The notes under the pieces are model-generated. The model ran no database searches and was not told the DNA's origin. It was given only the letters and a program-made list of their open reading frames with translations. Below are positions 42,224 through 48,056 of a DNA stretch of 64,000 nucleotides, piece after piece. Made by a program: the position numbers and the translations under genes. This DNA comes from Aminobacterium sp. MB27-C1 (GTDB lineage: Bacteria > Synergistota > Synergistia > Synergistales > Aminobacteriaceae). Location: contig NZ_CP133089.1 of the NCBI RefSeq assembly GCF_030908405.1, positions 806,001-870,000 of the forward strand, written 5' to 3'. Position 1 is the stretch's first letter, and every line of letters begins with the position of its first letter.

Positions 42224-42252
42224 TTGACGGATATGTGGAAAAGTGGTAATCT
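42224..42252 (+). promoter_or_regulatory. Promoter of the aromatic leader/permease operon
   Basis: TTGACG (42224-42229) and TAATCT (42247-42252) are separated by 17 bases. The expected transcript start, around 42258-42261, is at or just before the leader ATG 42261. Confidence 0.75.
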
Positions 42253-42260
42253 TCCCTATC

Positions 42261-42353
42261 ATGAAGAAAACAAAGAAAATTCAAGAAATGCTTACAAGCT
42301 GTTTCTTTTATTATTGGTTTAGCGTGGGTCCCTCTCCGGGGGTCGACGCTTAA
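42261..42353 (+). CDS. Aromatic-residue leader peptide (transcription attenuator)
   Basis: A 30-codon ORF contains the run Cys-Phe-Phe-Tyr-Tyr-Trp-Phe at codons 14-20 (42300-42320). A strong promoter precedes it. A GC-rich terminator hairpin follows 20 bases after its stop, before the permease gene. This is the classic layout of a ribosome-mediated attenuator that responds to charged tRNA-Phe, -Tyr and -Trp. The promoter position would make ATG 42261 leaderless; the internal ATG 42288 (codon 10), preceded by a purine-rich stretch, could be the true start and still includes all control codons. Confidence 0.75.
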   Translation: MKKTKKIQEMLTSCFFYYWFSVGPSPGVDA

Positions 42354-42412
42354 TTGCGTTGATCTTTTAGGGCAGGGCCCCTTTCTTACAGAGAGAGGGG
42401 CCCTGTTTTTTT
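42321..42412 (+). terminator. Attenuator: alternative hairpins and intrinsic terminator
   Basis: The terminator has a perfect 10-bp stem, CAGGGCCCCT (42373-42382) with AGGGGCCCTG (42396-42405), then seven T residues. Upstream, AGCGT (42321-42325) can pair with ACGCT (42346-42350), exclusive with CGACGC/GCGTTG (42344-42349 with 42356-42361). GGGTCC (42326-42331) can also pair with GGGCCC (42375-42380), which would break the terminator. The exact switch is inferred, not folded by program. Confidence 0.75.
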
Positions 42413-42496
42413 ATACTTTTAGAGCGAGAAAAGAGGGTAGGTATTGAGCTCACAGCAATACGTTAACTAATTTACTTGATGAGGACGGTGAAAAGG

Positions 42497-43702
42497 ATGA
42501 AAAAGGATGCCCAAGGGGGTTCTATCATCTCTCAACTTTTAGATATTACGCAGGTTAAATGGTTTAGTCGTTGGCTCATGATCGGTTTTATTTGTCAGTC
42601 TGTTCTTATTGGTGGCGGTTATGCCACAGGACGAGAACTGGTTGAATTCTTTATGATGAATGGCCTTAAGCAGGGACTATATGGAATGGCTGTTTCCACA
42701 GTTTGTTTTGCCCTCGTAGGTATCCTGACCTTTGATTATGCACGAAAGTTCAGACTTTACAATTACCGAAGCTTCTTCCAGAGCCTCTTCCCGGGTGCGA
42801 CCTGGCTTGTTTTTGAGGTAGGCTATATCTTTCTTGTTGTTCTGGTTGGAGGAATTCTTTCTTCTGCAGCTGGTACCATTCTTCAGCAATGGTTTGGTGT
42901 TTCTTACTGGGTTGGAGTCTCCGTTCTTCTTGTAGGAACCTCCCTTCTGCTTTTTGCCGGAGGAAAAGTTATTTCCACCATTCTTTCATACTGGTCTTTC
43001 TTCCTTTACGCTGTTATGTTCATTTTCCTCTATTCTACTGTTCGTCATTTTGGTATGGACGGAGTGTTCGGCAGCTTAACGAGAGATCACGGAGTAGCTG
43101 CAAACTCGAATTGGATTATGGGAGGAATAAAGTATACCCTTTACAATATGGTGTCATTTGTTCTTGTTCTTTATGCATTAAAAGATACAATTAAAACAAG
43201 ACGAGACGCAGTAATTAATGGCATTGTCGCCTCTATACTCATGATGATCCCCGCTGTTGTAGAGTACTTGGCTATGGCTCCTACCTATCCATCCGTTTTG
43301 CAGGAATCGGTTCCCGTTTTCGGCATCCTTAAAAATGATCTTGGCGGAGGGGTATTACTTTCTGCTTATGTATTGATGCTTTTCGGAACAAGTATTGAAA
43401 CCATAACAGGTTTTGTCCATGGACTTAATGAACGAATCAATTCTGTCTACCAGGAAAAAGGACGAGAGATGTCTCATCGTATGAGAGGCGTAGTCGGGTT
43501 CGTTATATTGATTGTTTGTTTCATTTGTGCAAAAGCAGGGCTCGTTGCACTTATCGCTCGCGGCTATTCCATTATGGCATGGTATTTCCTCGTGGTTATG
43601 GTTTTGCCCTTGGCCACAGTTGGACTTATGCGTTTGCGTGGAAAAGAGTTGCCATCTGTTTCTGAAAATATAGAGGAGGCGAAGATCCATGTGGAACCCT
43701 AA
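42497..43702 (+). CDS. YkvI-family membrane transporter, probably for an aromatic amino acid or derivative
   Basis: This membrane protein of about 401 residues has 10-11 hydrophobic segments and resembles YkvI-type proteins of the amino-acid/polyamine/organocation superfamily (QSVLIGGGYATGRELVEFF near the first helix; GTSIETITGFVHGLNER near the tenth). A specific substrate is not known for the family. The aromatic leader upstream and the coupled aminotransferase suggest an aromatic amino acid or its keto acid. Starts at TTG 42476 or ATG 42479 lack a ribosome site; ATG 42497 has TGAGGACG upstream. Its end overlaps the aminotransferase by 14 bases. Confidence 0.7.
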   Translation: MKKDAQGGSIISQLLDITQVKWFSRWLMIGFICQSVLIGGGYATGRELVEFFMMNGLKQGLYGMAVSTVCFALVGILTFDYARKFRLYNYRSFFQSLFPGATWLVFEVGYIFLVVLVGGILSSAAGTILQQWFGVSYWVGVSVLLVGTSLLLFAGGKVISTILSYWSFFLYAVMFIFLYSTVRHFGMDGVFGSLTRDHGVAANSNWIMGGIKYTLYNMVSFVLVLYALKDTIKTRRDAVINGIVASILMMIPAVVEYLAMAPTYPSVLQESVPVFGILKNDLGGGVLLSAYVLMLFGTSIETITGFVHGLNERINSVYQEKGREMSHRMRGVVGFVILIVCFICAKAGLVALIARGYSIMAWYFLVVMVLPLATVGLMRLRGKELPSVSENIEEAKIHVEP

Positions 43703-44845: not shown

Positions 44846-44874
44846 TTTACAAAATTTTAAAGGTTTGATAACAT
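44846..44874 (+). promoter_or_regulatory. Promoter of the branched-chain leader/lactate-permease operon
   Basis: TTTACA (44846-44851) and TAACAT (44869-44874) are separated by 17 bases, about 50 bases before the leader GTG. Confidence 0.7.
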
Positions 44875-44924
44875 TCCGAGCCAACAGTAGAAAAAAGTTT
44901 ATAGAACTTGAGGAGGGACAGACG

Positions 44925-45014
44925 GTGTGTAACGTAGAGGCTATAGTTGCTCTTATTCTTATACTTGCGCTCATTATTAGATGTCGGTCCTATCCTCGGG
45001 CGACAGTTCTGTAA
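44925..45014 (+). CDS. Branched-chain leader peptide (transcription attenuator)
   Basis: A 29-residue ORF begins at GTG 44925, seven bases after a strong AGGAGGG site, and ends at TAA 45012-45014. Codons 6-18 encode Ala-Ile-Val-Ala-Leu-Ile-Leu-Ile-Leu-Ala-Leu-Ile-Ile: five Ile, four Leu and one Val in thirteen codons. A terminator follows. This matches ilv/leu-type leaders that sense charged branched-chain tRNAs. The hydrophobic run could also suggest a tiny membrane peptide, but the promoter, terminator and alternative pairing favour attenuation. Confidence 0.78.
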   Translation: MCNVEAIVALILILALIIRCRSYPRATVL

Positions 45015-45064
45015 CGTATGGGCTGTACAGAGGTCGGGACCTTAAGGTTCCGACCTCTTTTTTT
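45008..45064 (+). terminator. Attenuator terminator with competing antiterminator stem
   Basis: AGAGGTCGGGACC (45029-45041) pairs with GGTTCCGACCTCT (45046-45058), one G-U pair, TTAA loop, then a T-run. TCTGTA (45008-45013) pairs perfectly with TACAGA (45026-45031), overlapping the terminator base. GGTCCT (44986-44991) could also pair with the GGGACC inside the terminator stem. Stalled ribosomes in the leader would therefore change terminator formation (inference). Confidence 0.78.
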
Positions 45065-45147
45065 ATATCCATATATCCCGGGAAGATATAAGGAGTACTC
45101 CGTAGCTCAGATCACACATATCAAAACATGTCTGGAGGAAGCATTCG

Positions 45148-46638
45148 ATGAACTTTTTGCTTGCGTTGTTGCCCATTGCAATAATTGTTGTCGGAATGGC
45201 AGGATTTAATTACCCATCAAAGGTTGTTGCGCCGATAAGCTGGATTGTAGCTCTCTTTTTCGGAAATGTTGTTTTTAAAACGCCTCTTATGAATTTGGCG
45301 CAGACGAGTTGGAATGGTTTTTTGGACGGAGTTCGTATTGTATGGCTTATTTTTGCCGCCTTTACTCTTCTCATCGTTATGGTGGATTCAACGGCTATGG
45401 ATTCCATAAAACGTGGTCTTTCAAAGGTTACAAGAGATAAAAGACTTATGGTCTTATTTTTAGCTATTCCCTTCGGAACCTTTCTTGAAGGAGCGGCAGG
45501 AGCAGGGGCTCCAGCTGCGTTGGCGGCTCCTTTTCTCGTTGGACTTGGTATGAACCCTGTCATTGCTGCGGCAGCCTGTCTTATCGGGAATTCATGTCCT
45601 GTAAGCTGGGGTGGAGCTGGTGTAACCACCGTTGTCGGATCTGGTGCGGCCGGCCTTGATTTCGTGCCAGTTTCCGTTATGACTGGTAAAATGATGTCGT
45701 TGGGATATATATTGCTCCCAATCCTGATCATTGGTTTTGTTTTTGGGAAAAAGGCTTTTAGAGGCATATGGAAAGACGTACTTGTTATGGGATTTGTTAT
45801 GGGGAGCATAAACTTTACGATGAGCAACGTCTTTATTCCCGTTACAGAACTCACAAGCCTAATCGGTGGAATGGCAGGAACTTTTGTCTTTGGAGCGTAT
45901 CTTTGGCTTCGAAAAAATGCTTCAGTTCCACAAGAATATGCGTTCTCTTCTCCAGACAACGATGAAACGTTACAAAATCCTCGTTTTAGTTTTCTTCGGT
46001 CTTTGTTGCCATACTTTATCTTAAGTATTTTGCTTGTAGTTGTACGGCTTTCTTTCTCATTAAAAACTCTCGTATCCTTCGGAGGCGGGTACACAGTTTG
46101 GGTGGGCTGTGTTGTTTTAACAAGCGCTTTCTTAGCATCTATACTATTGGGATACAGTAAGTTTTTCTTGGCATCTGCTCTTAAAGCTTTTAAGCGGGTA
46201 ATCCCTGCTCTCATTTCAATGGGCTTGCTTTTGGCCATGGTCAATTGCATGAAACTTTCTGGGCAAATCAGCACTCTTGCTGTGACTTTTGCTACGATTG
46301 GCAGTTTGTTCTACCCTGCAGTTGCCGTACTTATCGGTCAAATAGGAAGTTTTGTTACAGGAACAAACCTCGGGTCAAATCTTATGTTTAATCCGTTGCA
46401 TGTGGAAGCTGCAAAAAATCTTTCCATAAATGTGTTGCCTGTTGTAGCAGCTCAAAACACAGGTGGAGCTATTGGAAACATGATATGCCCAAATAACGTG
46501 GTGGCAGTGTGTGCATGTGTGGCTATATTGGGAAGGGAAGGAGAAGTTATGCGAAAAACACTTCTTCCATCTATCTGCTTTCTCTTTTTCTTTGGTTTCT
46601 TAGCCATGGTGTACACCTACGTAATTTTTCCTGCATGA
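45148..46638 (+). CDS. L-lactate permease (LctP)-family transporter
   Basis: This 496-residue transporter has about 12-14 membrane segments. Family signatures include FGTFLEGAAGAGAPAALAAPFLVGLG, IGNSCPVSWGGAGVTTVVGSGAA and the late GQIGSFVTGTNLGSNLMF and QNTGGAIGNMICPNNVVA. LctP members carry lactate, glycolate and related 2-hydroxyacids. The GGAGGA site fits ATG 45148. It is expressed only if the branched-chain attenuator is passed. The LarA-like racemase follows after 12 bases. Confidence 0.88.
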   Translation: MNFLLALLPIAIIVVGMAGFNYPSKVVAPISWIVALFFGNVVFKTPLMNLAQTSWNGFLDGVRIVWLIFAAFTLLIVMVDSTAMDSIKRGLSKVTRDKRLMVLFLAIPFGTFLEGAAGAGAPAALAAPFLVGLGMNPVIAAAACLIGNSCPVSWGGAGVTTVVGSGAAGLDFVPVSVMTGKMMSLGYILLPILIIGFVFGKKAFRGIWKDVLVMGFVMGSINFTMSNVFIPVTELTSLIGGMAGTFVFGAYLWLRKNASVPQEYAFSSPDNDETLQNPRFSFLRSLLPYFILSILLVVVRLSFSLKTLVSFGGGYTVWVGCVVLTSAFLASILLGYSKFFLASALKAFKRVIPALISMGLLLAMVNCMKLSGQISTLAVTFATIGSLFYPAVAVLIGQIGSFVTGTNLGSNLMFNPLHVEAAKNLSINVLPVVAAQNTGGAIGNMICPNNVVAVCACVAILGREGEVMRKTLLPSICFLFFFGFLAMVYTYVIFPA

Positions 46639-46650
46639 GGAGGAGTATCA

Positions 46651-47940
46651 ATGTATTCGTATACCATGAAATACGGAAAGGGGAACATCGATTTTTCTAT
46701 CCCGCAGAAAAATCTTCTGGGGATTATCGATAGCGAACCAATCGAAAGTATCGGTTCTGAAGAGGAAATCATCGTTCAGGCTCTTGAAAATCCTATTGGA
46801 TCTCCAAAACTTGGCGAACTCGTAAAACCTGGAGAGACAGTATGTATTATTGTTTCTGACATTACACGGGCTTGGCAGCGAATGTGGGTATATTTGCCCT
46901 TTATAGTCAAAGAACTTCGTAATGCAGGCATTCGCGACGAAGACATACTTTTTTTGAGCTCTACGGGAACTCATCGGGAACAAACTCAGGAGGAACACGC
47001 TCTTTTACTTGGCGAGGAACTTTCGAAAACGTTCGAGGTTGTCGATCATAAATGTCTAGATCATGACGATATGGTTCATATTGGAACGACTTCCTACGGG
47101 ACTCCTGTAAAGGTGAATAAAAGGGCTCTAGAATGCGATCATATCATTGTTACTGGTGCCATTATTTATCACTTTATGGCTGGATGGGGAGGCGGTCGAA
47201 AAGGAATTTTACCCGGAATTTCTTCTTATGAAACCGTTATGGCCAATCACGCTTTGGCGTTAGATCCTGTTCCTGGTAATGGCCGAAATATGAACAGCAG
47301 ACCAGGGAATTTTGAAAACAACCTTATGCATCTTGATATGATGGAAGCAGCGGCAATGGTCAAGCCAACGTTTATGTTTAACGTTATTCCTGGTAACGAT
47401 GGAAAGATAGGTTTCGCCGTGGCCGGAGATTGGGAAAAAGCTTTCTACGAAGGGGCTAAGATTGTAGATAAGAAAGATGGCGTCGTTATTTCAGAATTGG
47501 GAGACCTTGTTATAGCGACAGCTGGTGGATATCCCAAAGATATCAACTTTTACCAGACATCGAAAACTATTTTTAATGCCATGGAAGCGGTTCCTCAAGG
47601 GGGATCTATTATCGTATTAAGTGCGTGCAATGAAGGATATGGTAACGATGAAGTCCAATTCATGCTCCAGAAGTTTCCAAATACAGCGGAACGAGAAAAG
47701 GAAGTTCGTCGAGAATTTACTATTGCCAAATATGTTGGCTACACCATTGGTTATGTTGCTGAAAATTGGGATTTCTATTTGGTTTCAGAAATGTCGCCTA
47801 CAGAATTTGAAGGTACAGGTATTACTGTGGTTAAAAGCCTTGATGAAGCTCTTAACCAGGTTTATGATAAGCATGGTAATCAACTTAAGACATGGTTTAT
47901 GCCTCACGGAGCAAATACCCTGCCAAAACTAAAAAAATAA
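46651..47940 (+). CDS. LarA-family nickel-pincer 2-hydroxyacid racemase
   Basis: This 429-residue enzyme keeps the residues known from Lactobacillus plantarum LarA at the same numbering: His108 (SSTGTHRE), His174 and the pincer lysine Lys184 (YHFMAGWGGGRKGILPG), and His200. The NAD-like pincer cofactor and nickel should therefore bind. Family members racemise lactate, malate, phenyllactate or aliphatic 2-hydroxyacids. The adjacent permease and branched-chain leader suggest a branched-chain or lactate-type substrate, but this is not provable by reading. No larB, larC or larE is in the window, so cofactor synthesis must be elsewhere. GGAGGAG precedes ATG. Confidence 0.88.
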   Translation: MYSYTMKYGKGNIDFSIPQKNLLGIIDSEPIESIGSEEEIIVQALENPIGSPKLGELVKPGETVCIIVSDITRAWQRMWVYLPFIVKELRNAGIRDEDILFLSSTGTHREQTQEEHALLLGEELSKTFEVVDHKCLDHDDMVHIGTTSYGTPVKVNKRALECDHIIVTGAIIYHFMAGWGGGRKGILPGISSYETVMANHALALDPVPGNGRNMNSRPGNFENNLMHLDMMEAAAMVKPTFMFNVIPGNDGKIGFAVAGDWEKAFYEGAKIVDKKDGVVISELGDLVIATAGGYPKDINFYQTSKTIFNAMEAVPQGGSIIVLSACNEGYGNDEVQFMLQKFPNTAEREKEVRREFTIAKYVGYTIGYVAENWDFYLVSEMSPTEFEGTGITVVKSLDEALNQVYDKHGNQLKTWFMPHGANTLPKLKK

Positions 47941-47946
47941 GAACAT

Positions 47947-47985
47947 AAGAGGAGGCTACTGTTCTCATAAAGCCTCCTCTTATTG
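47947..47985 (+). terminator. Hairpin after LarA-like gene
   Basis: AAGAGGAGGCT and AGCCTCCTCTT form a perfect 11-bp stem with a 13-base loop. The T-tract is short (TTATT), so termination may be weak. Confidence 0.6.
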
Positions 47986-48056
47986 TATGCATGAAGGAAA
48001 GTTTAATCTTTAGTGTATAATAAAAATACAAGGGAAGTAGCAGGGAGGTCTTATAA

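Follow-up and report, generated by a model that had tools for sequence, protein, structure and literature searches.

A branched-chain leader attenuator in front of an LctP-family permease and LarA-type racemase operon in Aminobacterium

A short leader precedes a two-gene operon encoding an LctP-family permease and a LarA-type racemase (lctP-larA) in Aminobacterium sp. MB27-C1 (genome G000). The window is the 64,000-nucleotide stretch of contig NZ_CP133089.1 that was analyzed, and positions refer to it unless another locus is named. We hold with high confidence that this leader, rich in isoleucine, leucine, and valine (Ile/Leu/Val) codons, is a ribosome-mediated transcription attenuator upstream of lctP-larA. 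The whole explanation that we favor, in which a recruited ilv-type attenuator governs an operon that salvages branched-chain amino acids (BCAA) by importing and racemizing branched 2-hydroxyacids, is in our judgment probable.

The attenuator and its conservation in Synergistota

The leader comprises the following elements, all on the + strand.

44846..44874 (+): sigma-70-type promoter, TTTACA-17-TAACAT with an extended -10 TG (TGaTAACAT), found by consensus match and kept in G001 (taken as A. colombiense) and G002 (a third Aminobacterium genome)
44910..44917 (+): Shine-Dalgarno sequence of the leader open reading frame (ORF), GAGGAGGG, read from the sequence
44925..45014 (+): leader peptide ORF of 29 codons, GTG start and TAA stop, encoding VCNVEAIVALILILALIIRCRSYPRATVL
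44943..44978 (+): control codons, ATA GTT GCT CTT ATT CTT ATA CTT GCG CTC ATT ATT, 10 of 12 for Ile, Leu, or Val
44983..45004 (+): pause-type hairpin, GUCG.GUCC/GGG.CGAC, -5.9 kcal/mol, identical in sequence in G001
44986..45041 (+): antiterminator, pairing 44986-44991 and 44994-44997 with 45036-45041 and 45030-45033, around an inner stem of 45003-45009 with 45020-45026
45029..45065 (+): intrinsic terminator, a 13-bp stem (45029-45058) followed by T7; G001 keeps the stem through changes in the 3' arm

The original prediction described a promoter, a 29-codon leader with a good ribosome site, and ten Ile/Leu/Val codons in thirteen, all of which were found at 44846-45014, as well as an intrinsic terminator before the permease, which lies at 45029-45058 and is the strongest in the window. 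Its antiterminator, a 6-bp pairing of 45008-45013 with 45026-45031 (TCTGTA/TACAGA), is unconserved, G001 having TCTGTG/TTGAGA at these positions, and was replaced by the conserved, longer pairing of 44986-44997 with 45030-45041. Computed folds gave -25.5 kcal/mol for this antiterminator and -23.4 kcal/mol for the terminator. In both G000 and G001, a ribosome standing at the leader stop codon would cover the 5' arm of the antiterminator. When charged Leu-, Ile-, and Val-tRNA are available, the ribosome would thus reach the stop codon and cover 44986-44997, and the terminator would end transcription; when one of them runs short, the ribosome would stall in the codon run, the antiterminator would form, and lctP-larA would be transcribed.

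The leader was compared with random sequence by scanning both strands for a short ORF with a Shine-Dalgarno sequence, a run of Ile/Leu/Val codons (best count per 13 codons), and a terminator. The leader was the sole match with at least 8 of 13 such codons on either strand of the window, and it has 10. In a control of 2.56 Mb of Markov sequence, a single match reached 8/13 and no match with a terminator reached 10/13; a chance origin was therefore rejected. Furthermore, the 191-nt leader folded better than 200 of 200 shuffles (z -3.2). An Rfam search of the window returned tRNAs only, with no T-box (RF00230) before the operon, so that a T-box or another Rfam element was rejected as the identity of the leader.

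In G001, the homologous leader peptide reads VREATILIVLILILVLIITCRSYPRATVL before its stop, and its codon run reaches 13/13 Ile/Leu/Val through substitutions within and towards these three amino acids. The G000 and G001 peptides are different throughout residues 2-9, whereas the stretch that starts at the Cys codon and runs through the final sense codon is base-identical, third positions included, and the 5' arm of the antiterminator is unchanged. Judging from this comparison, what is conserved is codons plus RNA structure, not protein. The third genome has a shorter leader, with larA directly behind it and no lctP.

We next surveyed lctP in 188 Synergistota genomes (E 1e-60) and found it in eight, seven of which carry an orthologue (at least 60% identity). 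A promoter-like sequence, a leader ORF, and a terminator precede all seven orthologues, with runs of 7-10 Ile/Leu/Val codons per 10 in six of them; no such leader was found before the 39%-identical lctP paralogue of G013. In six of the seven loci larA lies directly downstream of lctP. At the remaining one (G014, L184:2985-4479), a 2-oxoacid oxidoreductase-like gene, read from the DNA, stands in place of larA behind the leader-controlled lctP. Leaders of the same type also precede genes for YkvI-type transporters in G022, where larA follows, and at locus L113, where larA is divergent, as well as the ilv operons of G022 (MSNLFVVCNFGLLLVVVIIGLLIRGSSVGVAGA), G018 (MNQRGISMNVVLVIIISLLIRGSSVGVVGV), and G035 (MKATANFNLFVIIIVVVICCGVLPGVTVGV). 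In DNA alignments, CTTATTCGCGGGTCCTC and the terminator connect some of the leaders before lctP, ykvI, and ilv genes. Because some lctP and ykvI leaders align in this way with ilv-operon leaders of the phylum, the sequences indicate that an ilv-type attenuator has come to serve a new target.

Scanning 1.56 Mb on both strands gave 11 distinct leader matches of at least 8/13, and in nine cases the gene behind the match was ilv, lctP, larA, or ykvI. Before other larA genes, a search for leaders enriched in codons for Phe/Tyr/Trp, Met, Cys, His, or Thr returned nothing credible. Among 14 leaders folded, 12, including those of G000 and G001, showed the antiterminator geometry that the model requires, with the 5' arm downstream of the codon run and ahead of the leader stop; the leu leader of G000 folded without it. 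The terminator stem showed changes on both sides in three of nine pairs among five homologous leaders, a small sample. The comparison with other Synergistota that the original prediction had proposed thus came out in its favor, with the codon run, terminator, and switch geometry recurring and the ilv leaders homologous.

Racemase, permease, and branched-chain metabolism

Behind the leader lie two genes and a hairpin.

45148..46638 (+): LctP-family (Lactate_perm) permease, 496 aa; PF02652, 287 bits, E 3.9e-85
46651..47940 (+): LarA-type nickel-pincer racemase, 429 aa; PF09861, 259 bits; most similar to the LarAH10 / hydrophobic 2-hydroxyacid racemase (HHR) group
47943..47987 (+): probable operon-end hairpin; fold of -21.6 kcal/mol over 47940-47990

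Both family assignments in the original prediction were borne out. The permease scores well over the cut-off of PF02652, but it differs from established LctP lactate/glycolate permeases in reaching only 288 bits against the 341-bit cut-off of TIGR00795. For the racemase, the best curated model is NF052525 (LarAH10), with 489 bits, and the next model follows 94 bits behind at 395. The residues predicted to be intact, namely, the catalytic His108 and His174 and the Lys184 and His200 that bind the NPN cofactor, were invariant in all 13 aligned LarA sequences, and LarC, which serves NPN cofactor synthesis, is present in the genome.

The specificity positions of the racemase hold F175, M176, Y361, and V362, with Tyr at the position of LarA W358. 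Lactate racemases have F, F, W, and E/Q at these positions, malate racemases have H/Q and K at the last two, and HHRs have F/Y at the third (PMC11770544). The MB27-C1 protein thus shows the HHR pattern, with F/Y at the LarA1 W358 position and neither malate- nor lactate-racemase residues there. LarAH10, LarAH52, and LarAH66 were all active on 2-hydroxyisovalerate and 2-hydroxyisocaproate, and the true substrate of LarAH52 and LarAH66 is perhaps still to be identified, according to the authors of these assays (PMC11770544). The window LarA probably acts on hydrophobic 2-hydroxyacids. It shares with LarAH10 and other HHRs the best curated model, both catalytic histidines, Lys184 and His200, and the Tyr at the W358 position; it differs in scoring under the model cut-off, and the native substrates of the characterized HHRs are themselves unsettled (PMC11770544).

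Profiles for acetolactate synthase (ilvB, TIGR00118) and ilvC (TIGR00465) gave only short matches under the cut-off in the three Aminobacterium genomes, and were positive in 14 of 14 control genomes; no ilvB or ilvC is thus detectable in these three genomes of the genus. The ilvD gene is absent from G001. In G000, an ilvD at about 2333 kb (L091:3609-15927, about 2323.6-2335.9 kb) adjoins a TctABC-type transporter, a 2-hydroxyacid dehydrogenase, an SDR gene, and an isopropylmalate-synthase-like gene. Given the transporter and dehydrogenase neighbors, it is perhaps not a gene of BCAA synthesis, and the cluster is perhaps one for dihydroxyacid catabolism.

The leuACDB genes of G000 (L095:5748-10096, about 2156.7-2161.1 kb) are kept and have their own Leu attenuator (MKIGYMNNLTAISSLSLLLLGCWFLSGTPAAL, four consecutive Leu codons). 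From these gene contents, Leu can apparently be made from 2-oxoisovalerate, with the route to 2-oxoisovalerate missing. Since leuACDB is kept and ilvB and ilvC are undetected, an outside source of this precursor is needed, which must be Val, a hydroxy or oxo acid from outside, or isobutyrate carboxylation. Salvage from 2-hydroxyisovalerate would fit this metabolic gap. Two traits of A. colombiense, its requirement for yeast extract and its failure to use lactate, also favor such a reading (PMC3035294).

The operon would accordingly import branched 2-hydroxyacids such as 2-hydroxyisovalerate, 2-hydroxyisocaproate, and 2-hydroxy-3-methylvalerate. The racemase would interconvert their enantiomers, a stereospecific dehydrogenase would convert them to 2-oxoacids, and amination would yield Val, Leu, and Ile. 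The leader, its conservation, its kinship with ilv leaders, and the apparent lack of ilvB and ilvC are seen in the sequences, whereas the starvation response, the substrate, and both later enzymatic steps (dehydrogenase and aminotransferase) are inferred. On the sequence evidence we regard branched 2-hydroxyacid salvage as the fairly probable function of the operon.

Neighboring attenuator and T-boxes at other larA operons

In G000, a tRNA-Ser gene comes first, followed by the genes for a YkvI-type membrane protein and a class I/II aminotransferase, and then by the leader, lctP, and larA. G001 has the same arrangement, and G002 lacks lctP. The operon of the YkvI-type protein and the HisC-like (class I/II) aminotransferase stands behind a second attenuator, with a long terminator.

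42224-42412 (+): aromatic leader; promoter TTGACG-17-TAATCT; ORF 42261-42353 encoding MKKTKKIQEMLTSCFFYYWFSVGPSPGVDA, with Phe-Phe-Tyr-Tyr-Trp-Phe codons
42476-43702 (+): YkvI-type membrane protein, unmatched in Pfam and NCBIfam

This leader is conserved in the three Aminobacterium genomes, with RFFLYWFSVGPSPGIDA in G001 and GFFYFYFSVGPSPGIDA in G002. It has no Shine-Dalgarno sequence (42247-42263, +), and the -10 box is followed after about 8 nt by its ATG in G000, with similar spacing in the other two, so that the mRNA may be leaderless. Different amino acids thus apparently control the two adjacent operons. Because its operon has an aromatic leader, we did not count the neighboring aminotransferase as the amination step; to judge from that leader, it is more likely an aromatic than a branched-chain enzyme. 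We presume the 42476-43702 product to be of the YkvI type, a name that no library model confirmed. A 21%-identical relative of it stands under a BCAA leader beside larA in G022.

The larA comparison set of 79 named loci, Firmicutes included, contained two direct cases of a T-box on a larA operon, among some dozens of Firmicute loci, and we claim no enrichment. At the Intestinimonas locus L173, lctP-larA stands behind an Rfam T-box of 96 bits (cut-off 93) with the aligned specifier AUC (Ile). The UGGU bulge of this T-box calls for discriminator A, which disfavors the alternative registers UCG (Ser) and GAU (Asp). At the Clostridium thailandense locus L147 (L147:368-2234), a T-box with the aligned specifier UUC (Phe) precedes an SSF transporter and a LarAH10-type larA; this locus has a second T-box-like motif at 623. 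T-boxes at loci L120, L136, and L143 were rejected as larA regulators because other genes lie between T-box and larA, and none was found at five SSF-larA or related loci. The two cases are consistent with amino acid sensing over hydroxyacid operons, and are not proof of it.

Alternative readings and significance

Several observations weigh against the proposed explanation. The lctP leader of G118 is weak, with only 4/10 Ile/Leu/Val codons, the computed fold of the G062 leader shows no antiterminator, and many Synergistota larA genes of the same group have no such leader. Shuffled upstream sequence equals the terminator-arm pairing in 3-64% of trials for most single leaders. The antiterminator pairing is 97% complementary and nearly invariant, and it is therefore supported by geometry and not by covariation. 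The racemase, at 489 bits, falls short of the cut-off of 540 for NF052525, and characterized HHRs favor linear over branched side chains, with a high Km or low kcat (PMC11770544). No ilvE match exceeded its cut-off, reductive carboxylation of branched acids could be another source of 2-oxoacids, and the auxotrophy of this bacterium for Val and Ile is a prediction from its gene content. The Ile T-box also stands alone, with no further T-box lctP in 295 genomes of the Intestinimonas order at the cut-off used.

The attenuator could be real and the operon could serve to draw carbon or electrons from lactate (or glycolate) during amino acid shortage. Members of the LctP family transport lactate and glycolate, LarA is named for lactate racemase, and Aminobacterium lives on amino acids, so that their shortage would amount to a starvation signal. 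However, A. colombiense (G001), which carries the operon with the same leader, does not use lactate and oxidizes Val, Ile, and Leu only with a methanogen (PMC3035294). Moreover, the racemase is closer to LarAH10 than to true lactate racemase (489 versus 312 bits) and has Y/V where LarA1 has W/T, and LarAH10 showed no activity on lactate (PMC11770544). We thus consider lactate use unlikely, and the suggestion in the original prediction that the operon supplies carbon is disfavored. The substrate could instead be a different hydrophobic 2-hydroxyacid (phenyllactate, 2-hydroxybutyrate, or 2-hydroxy-4-methylthiobutyrate, for example), with Leu/Ile/Val shortage a mere proxy for general amino acid hunger. 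The characterized relatives are promiscuous and favor linear or aromatic side chains (PMC11770544), the neighboring operon is under an aromatic attenuator, and the C. thailandense T-box reads Phe by alignment. Nevertheless, the codons of the lctP leaders are for Ile, Leu, and Val in six of seven genomes, not for Phe, Tyr, or Met, and the same bacterium has a separate aromatic leader, which makes such a substrate rather improbable.

A functional hydrophobic microprotein in place of a leader peptide is very improbable. Its product is plausible as a single membrane helix, but G000 and G001 differ in residues 2-9 and are base-identical in the RNA-forming 3' part, a terminator follows the ORF in every case, and a homologue recurs before ilv operons. 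We favor a branched 2-hydroxyacid as substrate because of the LarA subgroup, the pocket residue, the missing ilvB and ilvC, and the lack of lactate use by A. colombiense. The corresponding idea in the original prediction agrees with all four features, from which a branched substrate is predicted.

Like the E. coli ilvGMEDA and leuABCD attenuators, the leader combines a codon run in a short ORF, a pause hairpin, an antiterminator whose 5' arm is covered at the stop codon, and a terminator. It differs from them in its target, a 2-hydroxyacid permease and racemase (or a YkvI-type transporter) and not biosynthesis, and in its host, Aminobacterium having no detectable ilvB or ilvC. T-box leaders of Firmicutes also sense uncharged tRNA, and one precedes the Intestinimonas lctP-larA operon, but the window leader is not a T-box. 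We found no report in the open-access papers searched of attenuation or T-box control of a lactate permease or racemase, which is weak evidence of novelty, nor any of RNA regulation of HHRs. Attenuators of this kind are already known, and the novelty lies in the target and in the implication for orphan racemases.

An ilv-type attenuator thus appears to have moved from biosynthesis to putative hydroxyacid salvage in a genus that has seemingly lost the early BCAA pathway, and a Leu/Ile/Val-sensing leader before a transporter and a racemase names candidate substrates ahead of assays. We propose tentatively, as an idea somewhat more doubtful than probable, that amino-acid-specific RNA sensors (attenuators in Synergistota, T-boxes in Firmicutes) control operons that pair a LarA-type racemase with a 2-hydroxyacid transporter, and that they mark a little-known pathway in which anaerobes regenerate amino acids from the corresponding hydroxy acids, whichever enantiomer is at hand. 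If this is true, the sensed amino acid would name the native substrate of orphan LarA racemases, corresponding to Leu/Ile/Val in Synergistota, Ile in Intestinimonas, and Phe in Clostridium thailandense, and RNA sensors could serve as a guide to the substrates of uncharacterized transporters (LctP, YkvI, and SSF).

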